Assembly (NCBI GenBank): GCA_018242685.1
Contig: JAFEBM010000033.1
Span: 1 to 64,000, forward strand
Length of the DNA: 64,000 nt
Direction of reading: 5' to 3'
Source: Nitrospira sp.
Lineage (GTDB): Bacteria; Nitrospirota; Nitrospiria; Nitrospirales; Nitrospiraceae
Shown: positions 7,806 through 14,928 of the stretch, in pieces
Position numbering within the stretch: position 1 is the first letter of the stretch
Layout of the letters: every line of letters begins with the position of its first letter
The notes under the pieces: model-generated
Told to the model about the DNA's origin: nothing
Seen by the model: only the letters and a program-made list of their open reading frames with translations
The model's database searches: none
Translations under genes and position numbers: made by a program

Positions 7806-9185
7806 GTGCATCAGCCGGATATGTCCGAGTCGGGGACTGAGAGCTTCTTGAGAAAGTTGCATGAACGCCCGCACCAGCCGATTGGGAGATGGTTGCGCGC
7901 GCCGGCTCATGTGCACTACGAAGCGTTTCGCATGTCCGACCCGCCGACGCAGCGTCCGGCCAGTCGGTCGGAATTCCAGTCGTTGTTGGGACGTCTCAAG
8001 ATTTCCGCCGAGACGACTGACCTTCGGGACAATTTCGGCTACGGCATCAAGGAATCCGAAAACGGCGATCGGCTCATCCTCATCTGGCAGGCGCACACGG
8101 AATACTATAATTACCAACTCTGGCATGTGCCGTCGCAAGCGAACGGGACGGTGACCTTCGGACCATTGCAGTTTCCGGATTACACGTTTCCCATGGAGCT
8201 GCTTGGGTCGATGGTCTGCCGCTTGGACATTCTACTGACGACAGGTATGTTGCCGCCGCGGAGTGAACTGCGTGGGGTGATACCTGGTCCCGTCTTGTAC
8301 GGAAGTCGAATCTTCAATGAACAGACATGCGTCGCGACGAGTTTTACGCCGGACGACCACGGGCGAGAGCGGTACTGGGTCAGTGTCGGCCCGTCGCAAG
8401 GCGATCCGTCACGTCTGAAAGACATCGTCGATGCCATTGTGCGGGTCGAGACTTACTATCATTTGTTATTGATGCAAAAGCCGCTGTTCTCCGCCGCCAT
8501 CGACCAGGTCTATAAATTTGAGCAGGTTCACTTGAAGCAGCGAGAAATTATTACGTCTCACATCGCGCACGCAAACTCGGAAATCTTGCAGCGATGGCTG
8601 AATACGCTCACCCAGGATCTGTTGAAAATGAACCGTATGGCGGGGAAGCTGCACTTCGAGTTGTCCGCCTCGCTACCCTACGACAAGATCGTGCATACGA
8701 CGCTGACGTCCATCGCCGAGCATCCGATGGACTCCTACCGTCCCATCTCCGATTATGTCTTGGGGGGCATTACGGGAGTTGCGGAAGGCTATCAGCAGCT
8801 CTTGCGTCGCATCGACACGCTCCGCGGAGGATTCGAGGGCATCATCGCGATCATTCGAACCCGCATCGACTTGATTCTGGAATCGCAAAACCTCGCATTA
8901 CTCCAAAGCGTCGACAAAACGACCAAGAGCCAAGTGATCCTGCAACACACGGTCGAAGGACTGTCGGTAATCGTGATTGCCTATTACCTAGCGGGGCTGG
9001 CCGGATATGTCTTCAGAGGATTTGCCGAACTCGGTTGGCTCAAGAACGTGAATCTCGCTTCGGCGATCTTTGTCCCCATCGCGGTCGGGCTCGCCTTTTC
9101 CATCACGTCTTTCAGCAAGAAGTATCTGCATAAGAAGCTGGCAGCCGAACAGCCGGTGGCGAAAGGTGACAAGAAGGAAGAGTAA
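7806..9185 (+). CDS. DUF3422 family membrane-anchored protein
   Basis: This 459-residue protein has the DUF3422 layout: a soluble N-terminal region with ERPHQPIGRWLRAPAHVHYE and WQAHTEYYNYQLW, a helical middle (about 225-380), and two hydrophobic segments near the C-terminus (about 385-410 and 420-440) ending in a Lys-rich tail. It is probably an inner membrane protein with a large cytoplasmic part. The function of the family is unknown. The GTG start at 7806 is preceded by AGAGGAGG and is well supported. It follows the CsgG/PDZ lipoprotein closely and may share its transcript. Confidence 0.85.
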   Translation: MHQPDMSESGTESFLRKLHERPHQPIGRWLRAPAHVHYEAFRMSDPPTQRPASRSEFQSLLGRLKISAETTDLRDNFGYGIKESENGDRLILIWQAHTEYYNYQLWHVPSQANGTVTFGPLQFPDYTFPMELLGSMVCRLDILLTTGMLPPRSELRGVIPGPVLYGSRIFNEQTCVATSFTPDDHGRERYWVSVGPSQGDPSRLKDIVDAIVRVETYYHLLLMQKPLFSAAIDQVYKFEQVHLKQREIITSHIAHANSEILQRWLNTLTQDLLKMNRMAGKLHFELSASLPYDKIVHTTLTSIAEHPMDSYRPISDYVLGGITGVAEGYQQLLRRIDTLRGGFEGIIAIIRTRIDLILESQNLALLQSVDKTTKSQVILQHTVEGLSVIVIAYYLAGLAGYVFRGFAELGWLKNVNLASAIFVPIAVGLAFSITSFSKKYLHKKLAAEQPVAKGDKKEE

Positions 9186-9259
9186 TCGAGATGGCTGTTT
9201 CAGCTGTCGAAGCCTGGTCCGTCGAGTACACCCAGACGTAATCTTGTCGCGATGTTCAG

Positions 9260-9477
9260 GTGAACGCTCATGATGAAAAGCAAGAAGAGGAGCGGGTGGC
9301 CGTCAATCTGCGACGAGGGATCGAACCTACAGAATTGGCACTAGCCTTTCGACTTGCCGTGCTACGCAGCGGAATCCCGCCTGCACTATGGCTGATGTGA
9401 TGCACGAGATTAGGTTACAGAAAGAAGCAGCTTGGCGGCGGTTGGTGGCTCAGTTAGAGGCCAAGTGCTCGCCGTAG
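9260..9477 (+). pseudogene. Frameshifted small gene of unknown family
   Basis: Two adjacent frames together read like one small helical protein. The first runs from a GTG at 9260 (VAVNLRRGIEPTELALAFRL, then RSGIPPALW) to a TGA at 9398. The second continues from 9391 (ADVMHEIRLQKEAAWRRLVA) to a TAG at 9475. A 4-base deletion in a tandem GGCTGGCT would explain the shift: restoring it gives an uninterrupted reading of about 73 residues. The amphipathic, charged pattern suggests a small regulator or antitoxin-like protein, but no family is recognised. It overlaps the 3' end of the convergent GIY-YIG-like gene by 24 bases. Confidence 0.4.
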
Positions 9478-9987
9478 AGACTTCACTGGTGTCCCTGGAC
9501 GACCTTTGTCCGAGTTCAGTATACCAGGGACACAGAGGGACTTAAGAAACTTGGTTTTCTTTTGATTGAGAAGTTTTGGGTTTTTATTTAGGCCGTGTCC
9601 TATAAGGTAGGACTCCAAAAACTGGATGTCTCGTTGCATGTTTTTTGATGGCTTTCTATTACGCCCCGTGGGCGTTTGTTTCGCCAACAGATAAAGGAGT
9701 GGTCGTCCCTTTTCTTTATCTGCCAGTACATAATTGTAATTGCCTACCTGATGTGAGCCTAGGCACTCTTTTCTGAAAGTGCGCTTCTCGGTCAAGCCGA
9801 CGTACCAAGGTATAATTCCCTTTGAAGCGCGGACTGCAAAAACATAGCAACCACAAGCATCGGAGAGATCTTGGCTAGCGTCACGTTCGACTTCGAGCCA
9901 GAACTCCCGCTGAGCCTCTGGGCTTCGATCAATGAGACCATTGCCGTTTCGTCAGATGATGAATGGCCCAAATATCTCGTATCGCAT
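9454..9987 (-). pseudogene. GIY-YIG-like nuclease gene interrupted by a TGA at codon 12
   Basis: Starting at an ATG at 9987 with a perfect AGGAGG site seven bases upstream, the frame reads MRYEIFGPFII, hits TGA at 9952-9954, then continues open for 166 codons to a TAA at 9454. The continuation has GCYVFAVRASKG followed by IIPWYVGLTEK and FRKEC, a GIY-YIG-type nuclease core (YVF and WYVG in place of GIY and YIG), then a C-terminal FLESYLIGHGL with PGILNSDKGRPGTPVKSLRR. The ribosome-binding site and frame agreement show the TGA is a nonsense change in a once intact gene of about 177 codons. No good internal start lies between the TGA and the core. The region is AT-richer than its surroundings, suggesting transfer. 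Confidence 0.65.
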
Positions 9988-10839
9988 ACTGACCTCCTCT
10001 TCTCCTCACAAGATGTCTATTTGAGCAGCCTGCTGCTTATCCAGACTTACTGAGCCAACCACCAAATAGTGCGTATCCAGCCATGGAGTGAAACGAGAAA
10101 TGCCCTATTTCATAGTTTTGAGTGAGAGATGTAAGCACTATTTGATGACCTCGTCAGTAATTAGCACGACAGCCTCATCGTTCAAAGGGAATACGTACAA
10201 TCTTAATTGGTGGTGGTTTGTTACGAAACATGCCAGGTATGCTCCGTTCGGAGGAGCGGGGATGAATGGCAGCCCGTAGCGTAGTGGAGGAGCATGAATT
10301 CTCCTTGGTAAAGAGCCCTGCCCGGAAGGGCAGGGCTCTTTACCGGACCTACAACCGTCATCTGTTCTCGGTGTACAAGGGGAACCGTCATTCCCAGGTA
10401 GCTCCGTTGTTTATCCACGAGCTCGAAAAAATGATGAGCCGTTCGCGTGCGGTATCAGATTCGATTCACCCCCCTGAATCTCATTCGATTCATGTCCGAG
10501 TCATTAGAGAGCGCGTATCACGATGAGAAAAGATTGCTCACGAATCCTATCGTGCTGAAAGTAAAGGGATACGGTCGATCTCACCCAGCATAATCGGCTT
10601 CTTGTTATCCTACCGGCATTTCGCTTGCTCTTGACGAATGTAACGCCACACAGAAGTCGAGCGATACGCGATTTCTGGCGGCTCACGTACGGCCCATAGA
10701 GTGGCGAAATTGGCGAATCAAGAAAAGGAGGTGGAAGGTATCTGATGTTTCGTCAAGCGGTTCACTACTCTCCCGTGGCACAGGCATGTCTGTATCGCTT
10801 GTTGCAGCATGTGTTCATTACATGAAAGGAGATATGACG
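9988..10839. other. Non-coding or decayed interval
   Basis: No frame here has coding character. The frames at 10088-10279 and 10266-10526 lack ribosome-binding sites, and the second runs through a perfect palindrome at 10307-10344. A possible 26-codon leader frame, ATG 10745 to TGA 10825, sits just before the gene at 10840. Overall this interval looks like residue of an inserted segment. Confidence 0.5.
10307..10344. repeat. Perfect 17-bp-arm palindrome (hairpin)
   Basis: The arms ggtaaagagccctgccc and gggcagggctctttacc are exact inverted complements around a 4-base loop ggaa. It is GC-rich inside, AT-rich at the ends and symmetric, so it could work as a bidirectional terminator (A-tract on one side, T-tract on the other). 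It could also be a remnant of a palindromic mobile repeat. Confidence 0.85.
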
Positions 10840-11862
10840 ATGTCGGCTCAGTCTGAGGACAAAACGAAGTACCCTTGGCGAAAGTATGGCAAACCCCAAA
10901 AGAACGATATGGAGCTTGGACCGCTAAAACTACTTCCTGGTCTGTGGAAAAGCGAGGGGCGTGGATGGAACATGATCGCACTGCCGTTTTCGACGGCGCC
11001 GAGCCCTCTGGATTATCGGTTGTTGCTCAATCAATATAACGAGCAACTTGAGTTCAAGCTCGTGGATGACGACGTACCGAACCGTGGTGTCGATAAGAAT
11101 CCCCCTCCGACCCCGACAGCCCAAACCGATCAACTTGTTGTCACGATAGATTATCAACAGACGATACAGCAAGTTGCGGCTGTCGATTCTCCGGATAGCG
11201 GTGGGTTGGCTGGGGCTCCCGGTCTCCCCATTCACCATGAGCCGGGCTTGTGGCTGCATATGAAGAATCAGGTCACCGATGGCCTCGATATTGCGCGACT
11301 TGCGACGATTCCCCATGGCGATTCAGTGCTGGCTTTGGGCGCAAGCAGCGTGCATGATGGGACATCCTGTATCCCCCATGTCAATACTTTGCCGGAGGGG
11401 GTTACCCAAGATCTGAATAACCCCTACTTACGCCCGTATAAACAATTCCACGACAATCCGTTCAAGGGAACCATAAACAATCCAAATTTTCCAGGATTTG
11501 ATCCAACCGCCACGCATGTACTACTTGAGCTTGCCAACAAGGGTGTCGAAGTTGTGAGGACCACGACACTTTCTGTTGACAGTACAATCCCGACGGGTGG
11601 TATCGCAAACATTCCGTTTATCGTACGGAAGGCCAATGCTGCGTCCATGAAGTCCATCTTTTGGATTCAGGAGCTGAAGGAGAAGGATAAGTATGGAGAG
11701 CCGAAGCTCCGCTTACAATATTTTCAGCTGGTCATGTTGGATTTCTTCCCGCGCAGAGATGGATTGCCCCCCGGTTGCTGCCCTGGCCTTATACGATGGC
11801 CACACGTAAGTATCAACACACTGGAAAAGGATGTTGAAGAGGGCAAAAAATACTACGCGTAA
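10840..11862 (+). CDS. Conserved heme-binding-like (HBP/nitrobindin-like) protein
   Basis: This 340-residue soluble protein has ELGPLKLLPGLWKSEGRGWN near the N-terminus, then HEPGLWLHM, ATIPHGDSVLALGAS, GGIANIPFIVRKANAASMKS and WPHVSINTLEKDV. This layout matches, from memory, a beta-barrel family often annotated as heme-binding or lipocalin-like, but ligand residues cannot be verified by eye. There is no signal peptide. The ATG at 10840 is chosen because GGAG lies 9 bases upstream; ATGs at 10786, 10822 and 10834 are in frame but poorly placed. It lies at the edge of the decayed interval and converges on uvrA. Confidence 0.55.
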   Translation: MSAQSEDKTKYPWRKYGKPQKNDMELGPLKLLPGLWKSEGRGWNMIALPFSTAPSPLDYRLLLNQYNEQLEFKLVDDDVPNRGVDKNPPPTPTAQTDQLVVTIDYQQTIQQVAAVDSPDSGGLAGAPGLPIHHEPGLWLHMKNQVTDGLDIARLATIPHGDSVLALGASSVHDGTSCIPHVNTLPEGVTQDLNNPYLRPYKQFHDNPFKGTINNPNFPGFDPTATHVLLELANKGVEVVRTTTLSVDSTIPTGGIANIPFIVRKANAASMKSIFWIQELKEKDKYGEPKLRLQYFQLVMLDFFPRRDGLPPGCCPGLIRWPHVSINTLEKDVEEGKKYYA

Positions 11863-11889: not shown

Positions 11890-11923
11890 GAGGCCACGGC
11901 GGACGGTCGGTTCGCCGTGCCTC
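11890..11923. terminator. Possible bidirectional terminator hairpin between the HBP-like gene and uvrA
   Basis: The arms gagg(c)cacggcg and cgccgtgcctc pair over 11 bases with one bulged C around an 11-base loop; a smaller hairpin (cgcgtaa / ttacgcg) precedes it at 11856-11879. There is no T-run, so termination is uncertain. Position between two convergent genes supports the idea. Confidence 0.35.
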
Positions 11924-14756
11924 ATGCGCTCAGAGGTTTCGGTTTGAGAGTGTCTGCCAAAAAGCGTCCGGTATGTGACGCGGCTACCTTCGCCACCTGT
12001 TCCGGCCGTCCTTCAGCGACGATCTGTCCGCCGGCTGCGCCGCCTTCGAGGCCGAGGTCGATGATCCAGTCGGCGGACTTGATGACATCCAGGTTATGTT
12101 CGACGACCACCAAGGTGTTGCCGGCATTCACAAGTTTGTGGAGGACGGCGAGGAGCTTCTTGATGTCTTCAAAATGTAGGCCGGTCGTCGGTTCGTCCAT
12201 GATATAGAGCACATTTTTGGTGGAAGCTTCCTTCAGCTCGGCGGCGATTTTTAATCGTTGGGCTTCTCCACCGGACAGTGTGGTGGCGGATTGGCCGAGT
12301 CGCAAATAGCCGAGGCCGATGGACGCAAGAAGCTGCAACTTTTCTTGTAATCTCGGCGTTCCAGTGAAAAAGGAGAAGGCTTCCTCCACGGTCATGTTAA
12401 GGACTTCAGAAACATTCTTGCCACGATAGCGAATCTTCAAGATCTCCGGTTTGAAGCGTCTGCCTTCGCAGATTTCGCAGGGCGCGTAGATATCCTCGAA
12501 AAAATACATTTCCAGCTTTTCCACTCCGCTGCCTTCGCAACGTTCACAGCGGCCACCGGTGGTATTGAACGAAAAGTGGCCCGGCGTGAATCGTTGCCGT
12601 AACGCTTCACGTTCCGAAGCAAACAGCCGGCGAATCTCGTCGAACGCTTTCAGATACGTGATTGGATTGGATCGAGGTGTGCGCCCGATCGGCTGTTGGT
12701 CGATCAAGCGGATGGCGTTGAGGTGCTCGATGCCTTTGATGGCCTTGAAACGGCCCATGGGAAGAGATTCCACACGGAAGGCCCGGGCGACGGACCGGTA
12801 GAGGGTATCTTCAACCAGCGTACTCTTTCCTGAGCCGGACACGCCGGTCACACAGACCAGCATGCCCAGGGGGATGCGAACGAAGAGATCTTTGAGATTA
12901 TGTTCAGTGGCGCCGGCGATCACCAGCATCTTGCCGTTTCCAGAGCGCTGTTTGGTGGGCAGGGGGATCTGTTCTTCACCGCGCAAGTACCGGGCAGTGG
13001 TCGACCGACGGTCCTGGATGAATTCCTGCGTGGATGCCGCACAGACGATCTCACCTCCTTTTTCGCCGGAGTGAGGGCCGAGTTCGACAAGGTAGTCGGC
13101 CGATTCAATCATGCGGCGGTCGTGTTCGACGACGACCACCGTATTGCCGGTGTTGGACAGATCGTGGAGGATGCCGGCCAAGAGATCAGTGTCCCTTGCA
13201 TGAAGGCCGATAGTCGGTTCATCGAGGACGTACAGTGTGCCGACCAACTGAGAACCCAGTTGGTTCGCAAGCGCGACCCGCTGTGCCTCGCCACCGGAGA
13301 GGGTCTTGGTTTGCCGATTGAGTGTCAGGTACCCAAGGCCGACACGTCGGAGAAATCCTAGTTTTGCTCGGAGCTGTCGGAGAATATCCGTGGCGATTTC
13401 TTGCTCAAAGGCCGAGAGCGGCAAGGATTCTGTCCATTCGGAAAAGCTCTCGACGGTCCGCTCCATCACTTGGTGGATGTCGGCGCCGGCGATTTTGACG
13501 AACAGCGCATCCGGCTTGAGGCGGCTGCCATGGCAACTGGGGCAGTCGAAGGGCGTACGGTAGCGACTGAGAAAGACGCGGACATGCAACTTGTAGCGCT
13601 TCCCTTCGAGATATTCGAAGAAGTCGTTAATGCCGTCGAGGGACTTATCCCCCTCCCAGAGTAATCGTTGCTGGTCTTTAGGCAGCGAGTTGAATGGGAT
13701 CGTGGTGTCGACTCCGTGCCGGTTCATCGCGAGCAACATCTGTTTCTGCCACCAGGCGGAGCTGGGCTTGCTCCATGGCTCGACGACCCCTTGGGTGAGC
13801 GACTTGGTTGGGTCGGGGATGACCAGATCCGGGTCATACCGCAGCACGTTTCCGAACCCTTTACATTCAGGACAGGCGCCAAGCGGATGGTTGAACGAAA
13901 AGAGAATCGGCTTCAGGGGTTCGAAGGTCCGTCCGCAACCCTGACAGAGAAATCGCGTGCTATACGACTGCCGTTCCTGGCCGATGATGTCGATCGCACA
14001 GCGGCCTTCCCCTTCACGAAACGCCGTTTCGATCGCCTCGACCAACCGAGTACGGTTGTCCTCTCGGATCACCAGGCGATCGAGGATGATGTAGAGCGAG
14101 GGGAGTGTATGGAGTGAGAGCGGTTTGACCTCGTGCAAATCGAGTACATCGTCTGTGGTCTTAACACGGGTGAATCCGCGTGTGAGAAGTGATCGGATAA
14201 ATGCAGGTTCTTCTTTTGCGGAAGGAGTCGCAATAGGGAACAGCACCATCGCCCTGACATCTGGCCATTGCTTGAGGAGATCGTCTGCGACGGTGTCAGG
14301 CTGAAAGGAGCGGGATTCCTGATGACAATCAGGACAAGTGGGTTTGCCGATCTTGGCGAAGAGGAGGCGTAGGAGATCGGCAATTTCAGTCGTCGTGCCG
14401 ACGGTCGAACGAGCCGTCCTCACCTGATTCTTCTGCTCGATAGCAATGGCCGGTCGAACGTTGAGAAGACGATCCACATCCGGTCGGGCCACCTTGTCGA
14501 GAAACATGCGGGCATAGGTCGAGAGCGATTCGACATACCGCCATTGGCCTTCCGCGAAGATCGTGTCGAATGCGAGCGAGGATTTGCCCGAACCCGACAC
14601 GCCGGTAATGACCGTCACCTGATTGTGGGGAATCTGTAGCGAGACGTTCTTGAGATTGTTTTGTCGCGCGCCTTCAATGATGAGGTGACCAGTCGAGGGA
14701 TTGGGATTTATAGGGTTCGGCACAGCGATCGCTCCTCCATTGGGATGACCGATCAT
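11922..14756 (-). CDS. uvrA: Excinuclease ABC subunit A
   Basis: This is the ATPase that scans DNA for lesions and loads UvrB. From the start at 14756 it has 944 residues, near the usual UvrA length. Visible parts are the first Walker A (GVSGSGKSSLAFDTIFAEGQ), a first zinc module (CQGCGRTF to CPECKGFG), a signature TLSGGEAQRVALA with DEPTIGLHARD, a second Walker A (GVSGSGKSTLVEDTLY), a second zinc module (CERCEGSG to CEICEG), and a second signature TLSGGEAQRLK with DEPTTGLHFED. An upstream in-frame ATG at 14912 adds 52 low-complexity residues rich in Pro and Asn; neither start has a good ribosome-binding site. uvrB lies at 23200, not adjacent. Confidence 0.92.
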   Translation of the reverse strand: MIGHPNGGAIAVPNPINPNPSTGHLIIEGARQNNLKNVSLQIPHNQVTVITGVSGSGKSSLAFDTIFAEGQWRYVESLSTYARMFLDKVARPDVDRLLNVRPAIAIEQKNQVRTARSTVGTTTEIADLLRLLFAKIGKPTCPDCHQESRSFQPDTVADDLLKQWPDVRAMVLFPIATPSAKEEPAFIRSLLTRGFTRVKTTDDVLDLHEVKPLSLHTLPSLYIILDRLVIREDNRTRLVEAIETAFREGEGRCAIDIIGQERQSYSTRFLCQGCGRTFEPLKPILFSFNHPLGACPECKGFGNVLRYDPDLVIPDPTKSLTQGVVEPWSKPSSAWWQKQMLLAMNRHGVDTTIPFNSLPKDQQRLLWEGDKSLDGINDFFEYLEGKRYKLHVRVFLSRYRTPFDCPSCHGSRLKPDALFVKIAGADIHQVMERTVESFSEWTESLPLSAFEQEIATDILRQLRAKLGFLRRVGLGYLTLNRQTKTLSGGEAQRVALANQLGSQLVGTLYVLDEPTIGLHARDTDLLAGILHDLSNTGNTVVVVEHDRRMIESADYLVELGPHSGEKGGEIVCAASTQEFIQDRRSTTARYLRGEEQIPLPTKQRSGNGKMLVIAGATEHNLKDLFVRIPLGMLVCVTGVSGSGKSTLVEDTLYRSVARAFRVESLPMGRFKAIKGIEHLNAIRLIDQQPIGRTPRSNPITYLKAFDEIRRLFASEREALRQRFTPGHFSFNTTGGRCERCEGSGVEKLEMYFFEDIYAPCEICEGRRFKPEILKIRYRGKNVSEVLNMTVEEAFSFFTGTPRLQEKLQLLASIGLGYLRLGQSATTLSGGEAQRLKIAAELKEASTKNVLYIMDEPTTGLHFEDIKKLLAVLHKLVNAGNTLVVVEHNLDVIKSADWIIDLGLEGGAAGGQIVAEGRPEQVAKVAASHTGRFLADTLKPKPLSA

Positions 14757-14928
14757 CGTAGCAACTGCCAGAGGTTGGTTCAATGAAGGAACGTGGGGGA
14801 GGAGTGGACGAGGGGGATTCGGGTTCTTGCCTTTGTTTGGTGAAAGCGTAAAATCTACCAATTCAGCAAAGGCTTGGTGGTGCAGCTTAGCCGATGAGAG
14901 GATGATGGGCATTTAAACAGGAGGGTTC

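Follow-up and report, generated by a model that had tools for sequence, protein, structure and literature searches.

A predicted GIY-YIG-type nuclease gene interrupted at codon 12 in a variable slot of a Nitrospira genome, and its relatives in phages and bacteria

The GIY-YIG superfamily is defined, in the available part of its description (PMC1564403), by the GIY-YIG fold, a central Arg and, in the C-terminal part, a Glu that is usually followed by an Asn. Among its members, CMoRE/PD-T4-3 is presented in the accessible text as a single-gene type IV GIY-YIG defence enzyme that acts without a methylase (PMC12923530), and SNIPE as a membrane-bound GIY-YIG defence nuclease with extra domains, according to the portion of that report at hand (PMC13190303). 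Phages of the P2 group carry a defence hotspot at the side of the portal gene, where the available section of the source places four defence systems (PMC9519451). Here, we analyzed a window of 64,000 nucleotides from Nitrospira sp. (assembly GCA_018242685.1, contig JAFEBM010000033.1, positions 1 to 64,000), in which a GIY-YIG family gene on the minus strand (9454..9987) is interrupted by an in-frame TGA. With a probability of about 0.68, we regard it as an acquired gene for a stand-alone GIY-YIG nuclease that was disabled not long ago; intact members of the family would cut foreign DNA such as that of competing phages.

The gene begins with an ATG at 9987, and an AGGAGG ribosome-binding site is located 5 nt upstream (9993..9998, minus strand). 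The first 11 codons (MRYEIFGPFII) are followed by the TGA at codon 12 (9952..9954, minus strand), with C as the next base, and the terminal stop is at 9456-9454. The product would have 177 residues if the TGA were read past; as assembled, the gene is disabled. A preliminary description of this DNA, which named no strand, had listed the ribosome-binding site, the ATG, the 11 codons, the TGA and a long open frame, and this structure was recovered on the minus strand. Its count of 166 open codons is correct if the terminal stop is included; otherwise, 165 sense codons lie between the in-frame TGA and the terminal stop. A run of 166 open codons would arise by chance with a probability of ~1.5e-4 (base composition alone). 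Read in its five other frames, this DNA stays open for 64 codons at most. The reading frame is considered real because 17 relatives align with it from the N-terminal stretch through the end.

Codon 12 was compared in an alignment of 18 rows that included 17 relatives, as the preliminary description had proposed. Left out were L003, L005, L072, L078, L082, L084, L092, and L093; rows L010, L077, and L083 begin a few residues inside the N-terminus because of the coordinates chosen, and the alignment is gappy near codon 12 in L081 and L090. The codon was sense in all 17 relatives, encoding P (8), D (3), T (2), E (2), R (1), and A (1); the residue varied, and the column therefore needs no particular residue. 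The stretch before the stop was conserved, with G7 and P8 in at least 90% of the 18 rows. The counter-evidence named earlier, relatives without the first 11 codons, was not seen among the aligned sequences, all 17 of which keep the stretch. The model of the read-through protein had a predicted local distance difference test score (pLDDT) of 89.1 and a predicted template modelling score of 0.81. Residues 2-10 formed a confident strand in the model (mean pLDDT of 94 for residues 1-10), and part of the predicted sheet would probably be missing without them.

The stop would end translation after 11 residues, ahead of the GIY and YIG boxes. It is extremely improbable that the TGA encodes selenocysteine, an option raised in the preliminary description, or is read as tryptophan, and no support for either was found. 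SelA was not found in the host genome (93.75% complete), with positive controls in E. coli and M. jannaschii, and the 12 hits for the selenocysteine tRNA were all below the cut-off, while the controls matched in 14 of 14 genomes and exceeded the cut-off in five. The RNA 3' of the stop folded like shuffled sequences (z -0.09) and gave no hairpin signal for selenocysteine. Neither Cys nor Trp was present at the codon-12 column in any of the 17 relatives, and TGA terminates 21 of the 44 open reading frames (ORFs) of at least 200 amino acids in the window, which makes it an ordinary stop here.

Read-through at a useful level, or translation that begins downstream, is also improbable, if less so. 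A C after UGA makes the stop leaky according to the available part of one study (PMC5289835), so traces of full-length protein are possible. Against read-through, the RNA after the UGA folded no better than the shuffles, and codon 12 was both variable and sense across the aligned relatives. Of the read-through suggested earlier, the deliberate form found no positive evidence, and low leakage may occur because of the UGA-C context. No in-frame ATG, GTG, or TTG was present between the stop and 9795; the first such codon, a TTG at 9795, lies beyond both boxes, and the stretch lost by starting there includes the confident strand of the model. With selenocysteine and a downstream start both unlikely, the gene is most likely a recent pseudogene, and possibly a sequencing error, the two explanations which the preliminary description had also put forward and which are kept here as the likeliest.

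The window copy retained 17 of the 18 post-stop positions common to at least 14 of 15 relatives, which suggests that selection acted until recently. There was no second nonsense codon; based on a count of possible changes, one would be expected in half of random histories after 15-17 substitutions and in 95% after 63-72. The shared positions kept and the absence of a second nonsense codon indicate that the damage is recent or is an error. A sequencing or assembly error, with the gene intact in the organism, is an unlikely yet credible explanation: the remainder of the frame is undamaged, and the assembly consists of 78 contigs. Against an error, the neighboring small ORF is likewise out of frame compared with four relatives, and four of the 24 other family places inspected were broken; decay is therefore common here. 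With the window included, 5 of 25 places were broken, through a frameshift (L003 and L084), truncation (L005), or deletion of the core (L072). This count omits L078 (contig edge), L073 (weak, resembling another GIY-YIG protein), L094 (same match as L093), the plasmid hit, the loci of the host genome itself, and repeat fetches (L006, L007, L008, L074, L087, L088, L089, L091, L095, L096, L139, and L142). A near-identical copy was not found in the genomes searched, where the best identity was 45%. In the recent pseudogene that we prefer, the stop would be a true mutation and the protein would be absent.

The gene was assigned the GIY-YIG label because of its conserved residues and predicted fold. 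Eleven residues were invariant in the 18 rows (W30, G46, Y48, F50, P60, Y62, G64, F71, E125, N136, and N141). The GIY and YIG boxes (GCYVF ... YVG, residues 46-64; 9796..9852, minus strand) contain six of them, and the superfamily signature, G46-x-Y48 with Y62-[VI]-G64, was found in 18 of 18 rows. The Glu and Asn expected in the C-terminal part were likewise found in every row, as E125, N136, and N141 (residues 125-141; 9565..9615, minus strand). Two models, one of the part after the stop and one of the full read-through protein, were compared with known structures, and rows 1-11 of both lists were GIY-YIG proteins (Z 4.0-7.4), counting T4 endonuclease II (2wsh) and a plant glutaredoxin domain (2lwf) as such. 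The post-stop model matched UvrC (Z 6.6), I-TevI (6.3), and PD-T4-3 (5.8); the full model matched T4 endonuclease II (7.4), the plant glutaredoxin domain (7.2), UvrC (6.3), and PD-T4-3 (6.0). A Foldseek search of predicted viral structures gave a best E-value (E) of 0.014, with several hits named as GIY-YIG or homing endonucleases. The Pfam, NCBIfam, and PDB sequence searches did not support the label. The data point to a predicted GIY-YIG fold, in agreement with the nuclease type first proposed, and membership of a known family is not claimed.

The gene is inserted in a variable slot between a DUF3422 gene (7806..9185, plus strand; present in 56 of 59 same-genus genomes) and uvrA (11922..14912, minus strand; identified in 16 of the 19 loci compared). 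The slot was taken from 19 same-genus genomes, picked by contig reach among the 56 with DUF3422, and segments were matched on the plus strand at E <= 0.1 and on both strands at E <= 1e-5. None of the 19 loci covered an extra segment of ~930 bp that carries the gene (9411..10340): relatives matched up to 9408-9410 at most on the left and again from 10341 or later on the right, and the family protein was also absent from all 19. The G+C content of the broken gene was 47.6%, and that of 58 of the 64 kilobase windows was 52-60%. Both the composition and the unmatched segment support the acquired DNA suggested in the preliminary description. The gene is present in a single copy in the host genome.

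Both borders of the slot were present in 16 of the 19 loci, 78 bp to ~5 kb apart; in L057, L059, and L062, the right border counted was an extra piece of uvrA. Elsewhere, the slot contained a PIN gene (L056) or a nucleotidyltransferase-like gene (L055), the latter matching DUF6036 and, weakly, AbiEii by Pfam (run for L055 only). In the window, it also contains the remnant of a small ORF (9296..9478, plus strand), which is unbroken in the four relatives against which it is out of frame and is followed by the nucleotidyltransferase-like gene in L055 and L057, and an accessory gene for an FMP-type heme-binding protein (10786..11862, plus strand), present in 7 of 19 relatives. The DUF3422-uvrA slot is a site of gene turnover.

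Several further observations were made in and around the slot. In L057, L059, and L062, the extra pieces of the uvrA 3' end precede the full uvrA, as if elements enter at that end. At the right edge of the extra segment, 113 bp (10231-10344) recur on contig 19 with 82% identity; this stretch includes a perfect 17-bp hairpin at 10307-10344. An inverted repeat of 18 nt (83%) brackets the gene, with arms at 9440-9457 and 10046-10063, and was not used as evidence; a second pair of equal length and match occurred elsewhere in the scan that covered it. The DUF3422 match holds one stop codon in each of G021, G029, and G051. No tRNA genes were found in the window, two Rfam matches near the gene were both well under the gathering scores, and a promoter scan of 9186-10790 found none, compared with a shuffle mean of 1.6. 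Window DNA from 9300-10400 was not found in plasmids.

The distribution of the family was sparse. With the host genome included, members were found in 2 of 146 relatives, 2 of 79 genomes of the genus, and 5 of 395 genomes of the phylum, the last figure also including one weak hit that is apparently another GIY-YIG protein. Three genome sets around a Mesorhizobium genome gave 4 of 297, 5 of 385, and 3 of 398, with that genome as one hit in each, and three loci emerged when 84,980 species genomes were scanned with a pattern. In viral contigs, the window protein alone as the query had no match, a first family alignment yielded six loci, and another alignment yielded four new ones; two later scans of viral contigs returned only contigs already found. 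Four queries had no family match in 50,697 records of named phages, and there was one match in 72,556 plasmid records. Phage and cell copies were mixed in the tree, where at least three changes were forced (5 phage and 13 cell rows). No curated model matched the members scanned (Pfam, 0 of 4; NCBIfam, 0 of 1; PADLOC, 0 of 7), and PHROGs gave one hit only, at E 0.2, for seven members. No description of the family was encountered in the literature searched, where papers are not searchable by sequence, and its absence from print is not claimed.

Nine distinct phage contigs were counted, with L094 left out because its match is the same as L093. In eight of the nine, the family gene ran opposite in direction to the structural genes and lay among head or tail genes: between portal and scaffold (L080, L081, L083, and L090), adjoining head morphogenesis (L079 and L082), with baseplate genes around it (L093), or adjoining the tape measure (L092). 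Two portal-relative scans gave 47 loci, and both ends of the interval were seen in 38. Of these 38 portal-scaffold intervals, three held the family gene, on contigs already known, and five were nearly empty (<=160 bp); the 28 intervals longer than 400 bp formed nine sequence clusters, including that of the family gene. When ten slot proteins were scanned by Pfam, two were HEPN/DUF4145-like, one was DUF4238, one was DUF1003, one was a Mu F-type head protein, and five had no match; PADLOC matched none of the ten. The head protein indicates that the slot is not wholly cargo. Portal-to-scaffold DNA of L087 was not found in named phages.

Among the cellular copies, L002 (same genus) adjoins Vsr and a type II enzyme, L003 adjoins TmtA with McrBC ~3 kb away, and L071 adjoins PemK. 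L009 adjoins a transposase by Pfam, which we take to be of the IS3 type, and the neighbor of L085 is, judging from its sequence, presumably also an IS3-type transposase. L004 has a Tle1-like phospholipase gene on one side and a tyrosinase-domain gene on the other, and L011 adjoins DUF6946. The mobile and defence settings anticipated in the preliminary description were thus encountered in relatives; the defence setting is frequent and not general, because defence neighbors occur in some loci and ordinary genes in others. A methylase partner was not recognized in the neighborhoods inspected, which comprised DUF3422, FMP, and uvrA in the window and part of the neighbors of the relatives.

It is doubtful that the family members are homing endonucleases of the free-standing kind, and not accessory or defence nucleases, with a homing cycle behind the many broken copies. 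The predicted GIY-YIG fold, the insertion between conserved phage genes, the 5 broken places of 25, and a copy between ruvA and ruvB (L086, 1483-2762), which overlaps the start of ruvB by 4 bases, would all fit such an enzyme. Against homing, no DNA-binding module was found by Pfam in four members, and the portal-scaffold interval holds eight other clusters in related phages, as expected of a slot for accessory genes, an argument weakened by one of the eight (L117), which starts with the Mu F-type head gene. Homing was placed second because other genes share the slot.

Our best guess is a stand-alone accessory nuclease directed against competing DNA. Intact members may be single-domain nucleases that attack foreign DNA, including that of competing phages, and serve as exchangeable cargo in phages and in bacterial defence regions. 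Since no methylase partner was recognized, target and self might be told apart by base modification or another DNA feature, as in T4 endonuclease II or CMoRE/PD-T4-3.

A number of points weigh against this interpretation. A little full-length protein may be made in the UGA-C context, and a base-calling error is possibly the cause of the stop. The likely central-Arg column (72), its equivalence deduced from spacing, is Arg in 8 of the 18 rows, Lys in 4, and another residue in 6. All structural Z scores were below 8, the lowest GIY-YIG rows of the full model (4.6-4.7) tied with unrelated polymerases (4.6), and Foldseek gave no match at E <= 0.001. There was no sequence-profile match to I-TevI, and hhalign gave a probability of 1.3 against the single T4 endonuclease II sequence, a comparison of low power. 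L084 had no recognizable phage neighbor, with no PHROG match for the three neighbors scanned. Members among ordinary genes, such as L010 between SAICAR synthetase and pyrimidine phosphorylase and L086 between ruvA and ruvB, fit repair or recombination as well, and the catalysis, target choice, and anti-phage effect of intact members are properties that we infer.

The stop in the window copy is ordinary, and the interest lies in a family that is unmatched in four libraries and has a mixed phage and cell pattern. We tentatively propose, at slightly less than even odds, that the broken gene is a relic of a GIY-YIG nuclease family that no catalogue lists. Its single-domain members would have an added N-terminal strand with a counterpart in T4 endonuclease II, and would be found as interchangeable cargo in the phage portal-scaffold slot and in bacterial defence regions. 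The family could be a new stand-alone inter-phage or anti-phage effector and the slot an untapped source of effectors. It shares that slot with other unknown genes, some of them HEPN/DUF4145-like or DUF4238, and if intact members block phages, both a new effector and a list of candidate neighbors would follow.

The family was compared with known systems. The N-terminal domain of UvrC and the catalytic domain of I-TevI share the GIY-YIG fold (Z 6.3-6.6 for the best UvrC chains; 6.3 for I-TevI with the post-stop model), whereas the window protein has no partner domain by Pfam. The GIY-YIG restriction enzymes R.Eco29kI and R.Hpy188I had Z scores of 4.7 and 4.0 with the full model and 4.2 and 2.8 with the post-stop model; the full-model scores are near those of unrelated rows, and no methylase gene was recognized beside the window gene. 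In the P2 hotspot, as far as the accessible account goes, accessory genes are likewise exchanged beside the portal gene, but the P2 slot lies between the replication endonuclease and the portal, the family slot lies between the portal and scaffold of other phages, and known defence models matched none of the ten family-slot proteins scanned. CMoRE/PD-T4-3 is, like the enzyme predicted here, a single-gene GIY-YIG nuclease (Z 6.0, root-mean-square deviation (rmsd) 3.8, 91 residues). In the available text, it has a GIYxY-YIG motif and a C-terminal modification-sensing domain, whereas the family has GxYxF, where the invariant F50 occupies the position of the third Tyr, and lacks that domain; the match ends at 141-142 of 177 residues, and ~35 residues remain past it. 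T4 endonuclease II (DenA) differs in sequence, with 18% identity in the structural match, and in setting, since T4 carries DenA beside nrdB and rnlA, whereas the phage copies of the family run opposite to structural genes. It is also a small protein of phage origin, with 144 codons listed for T4, and was the top match of the full model (Z 7.4, rmsd 3.4, 102 residues), over a model range of 2-142 that includes the N-terminal strand.
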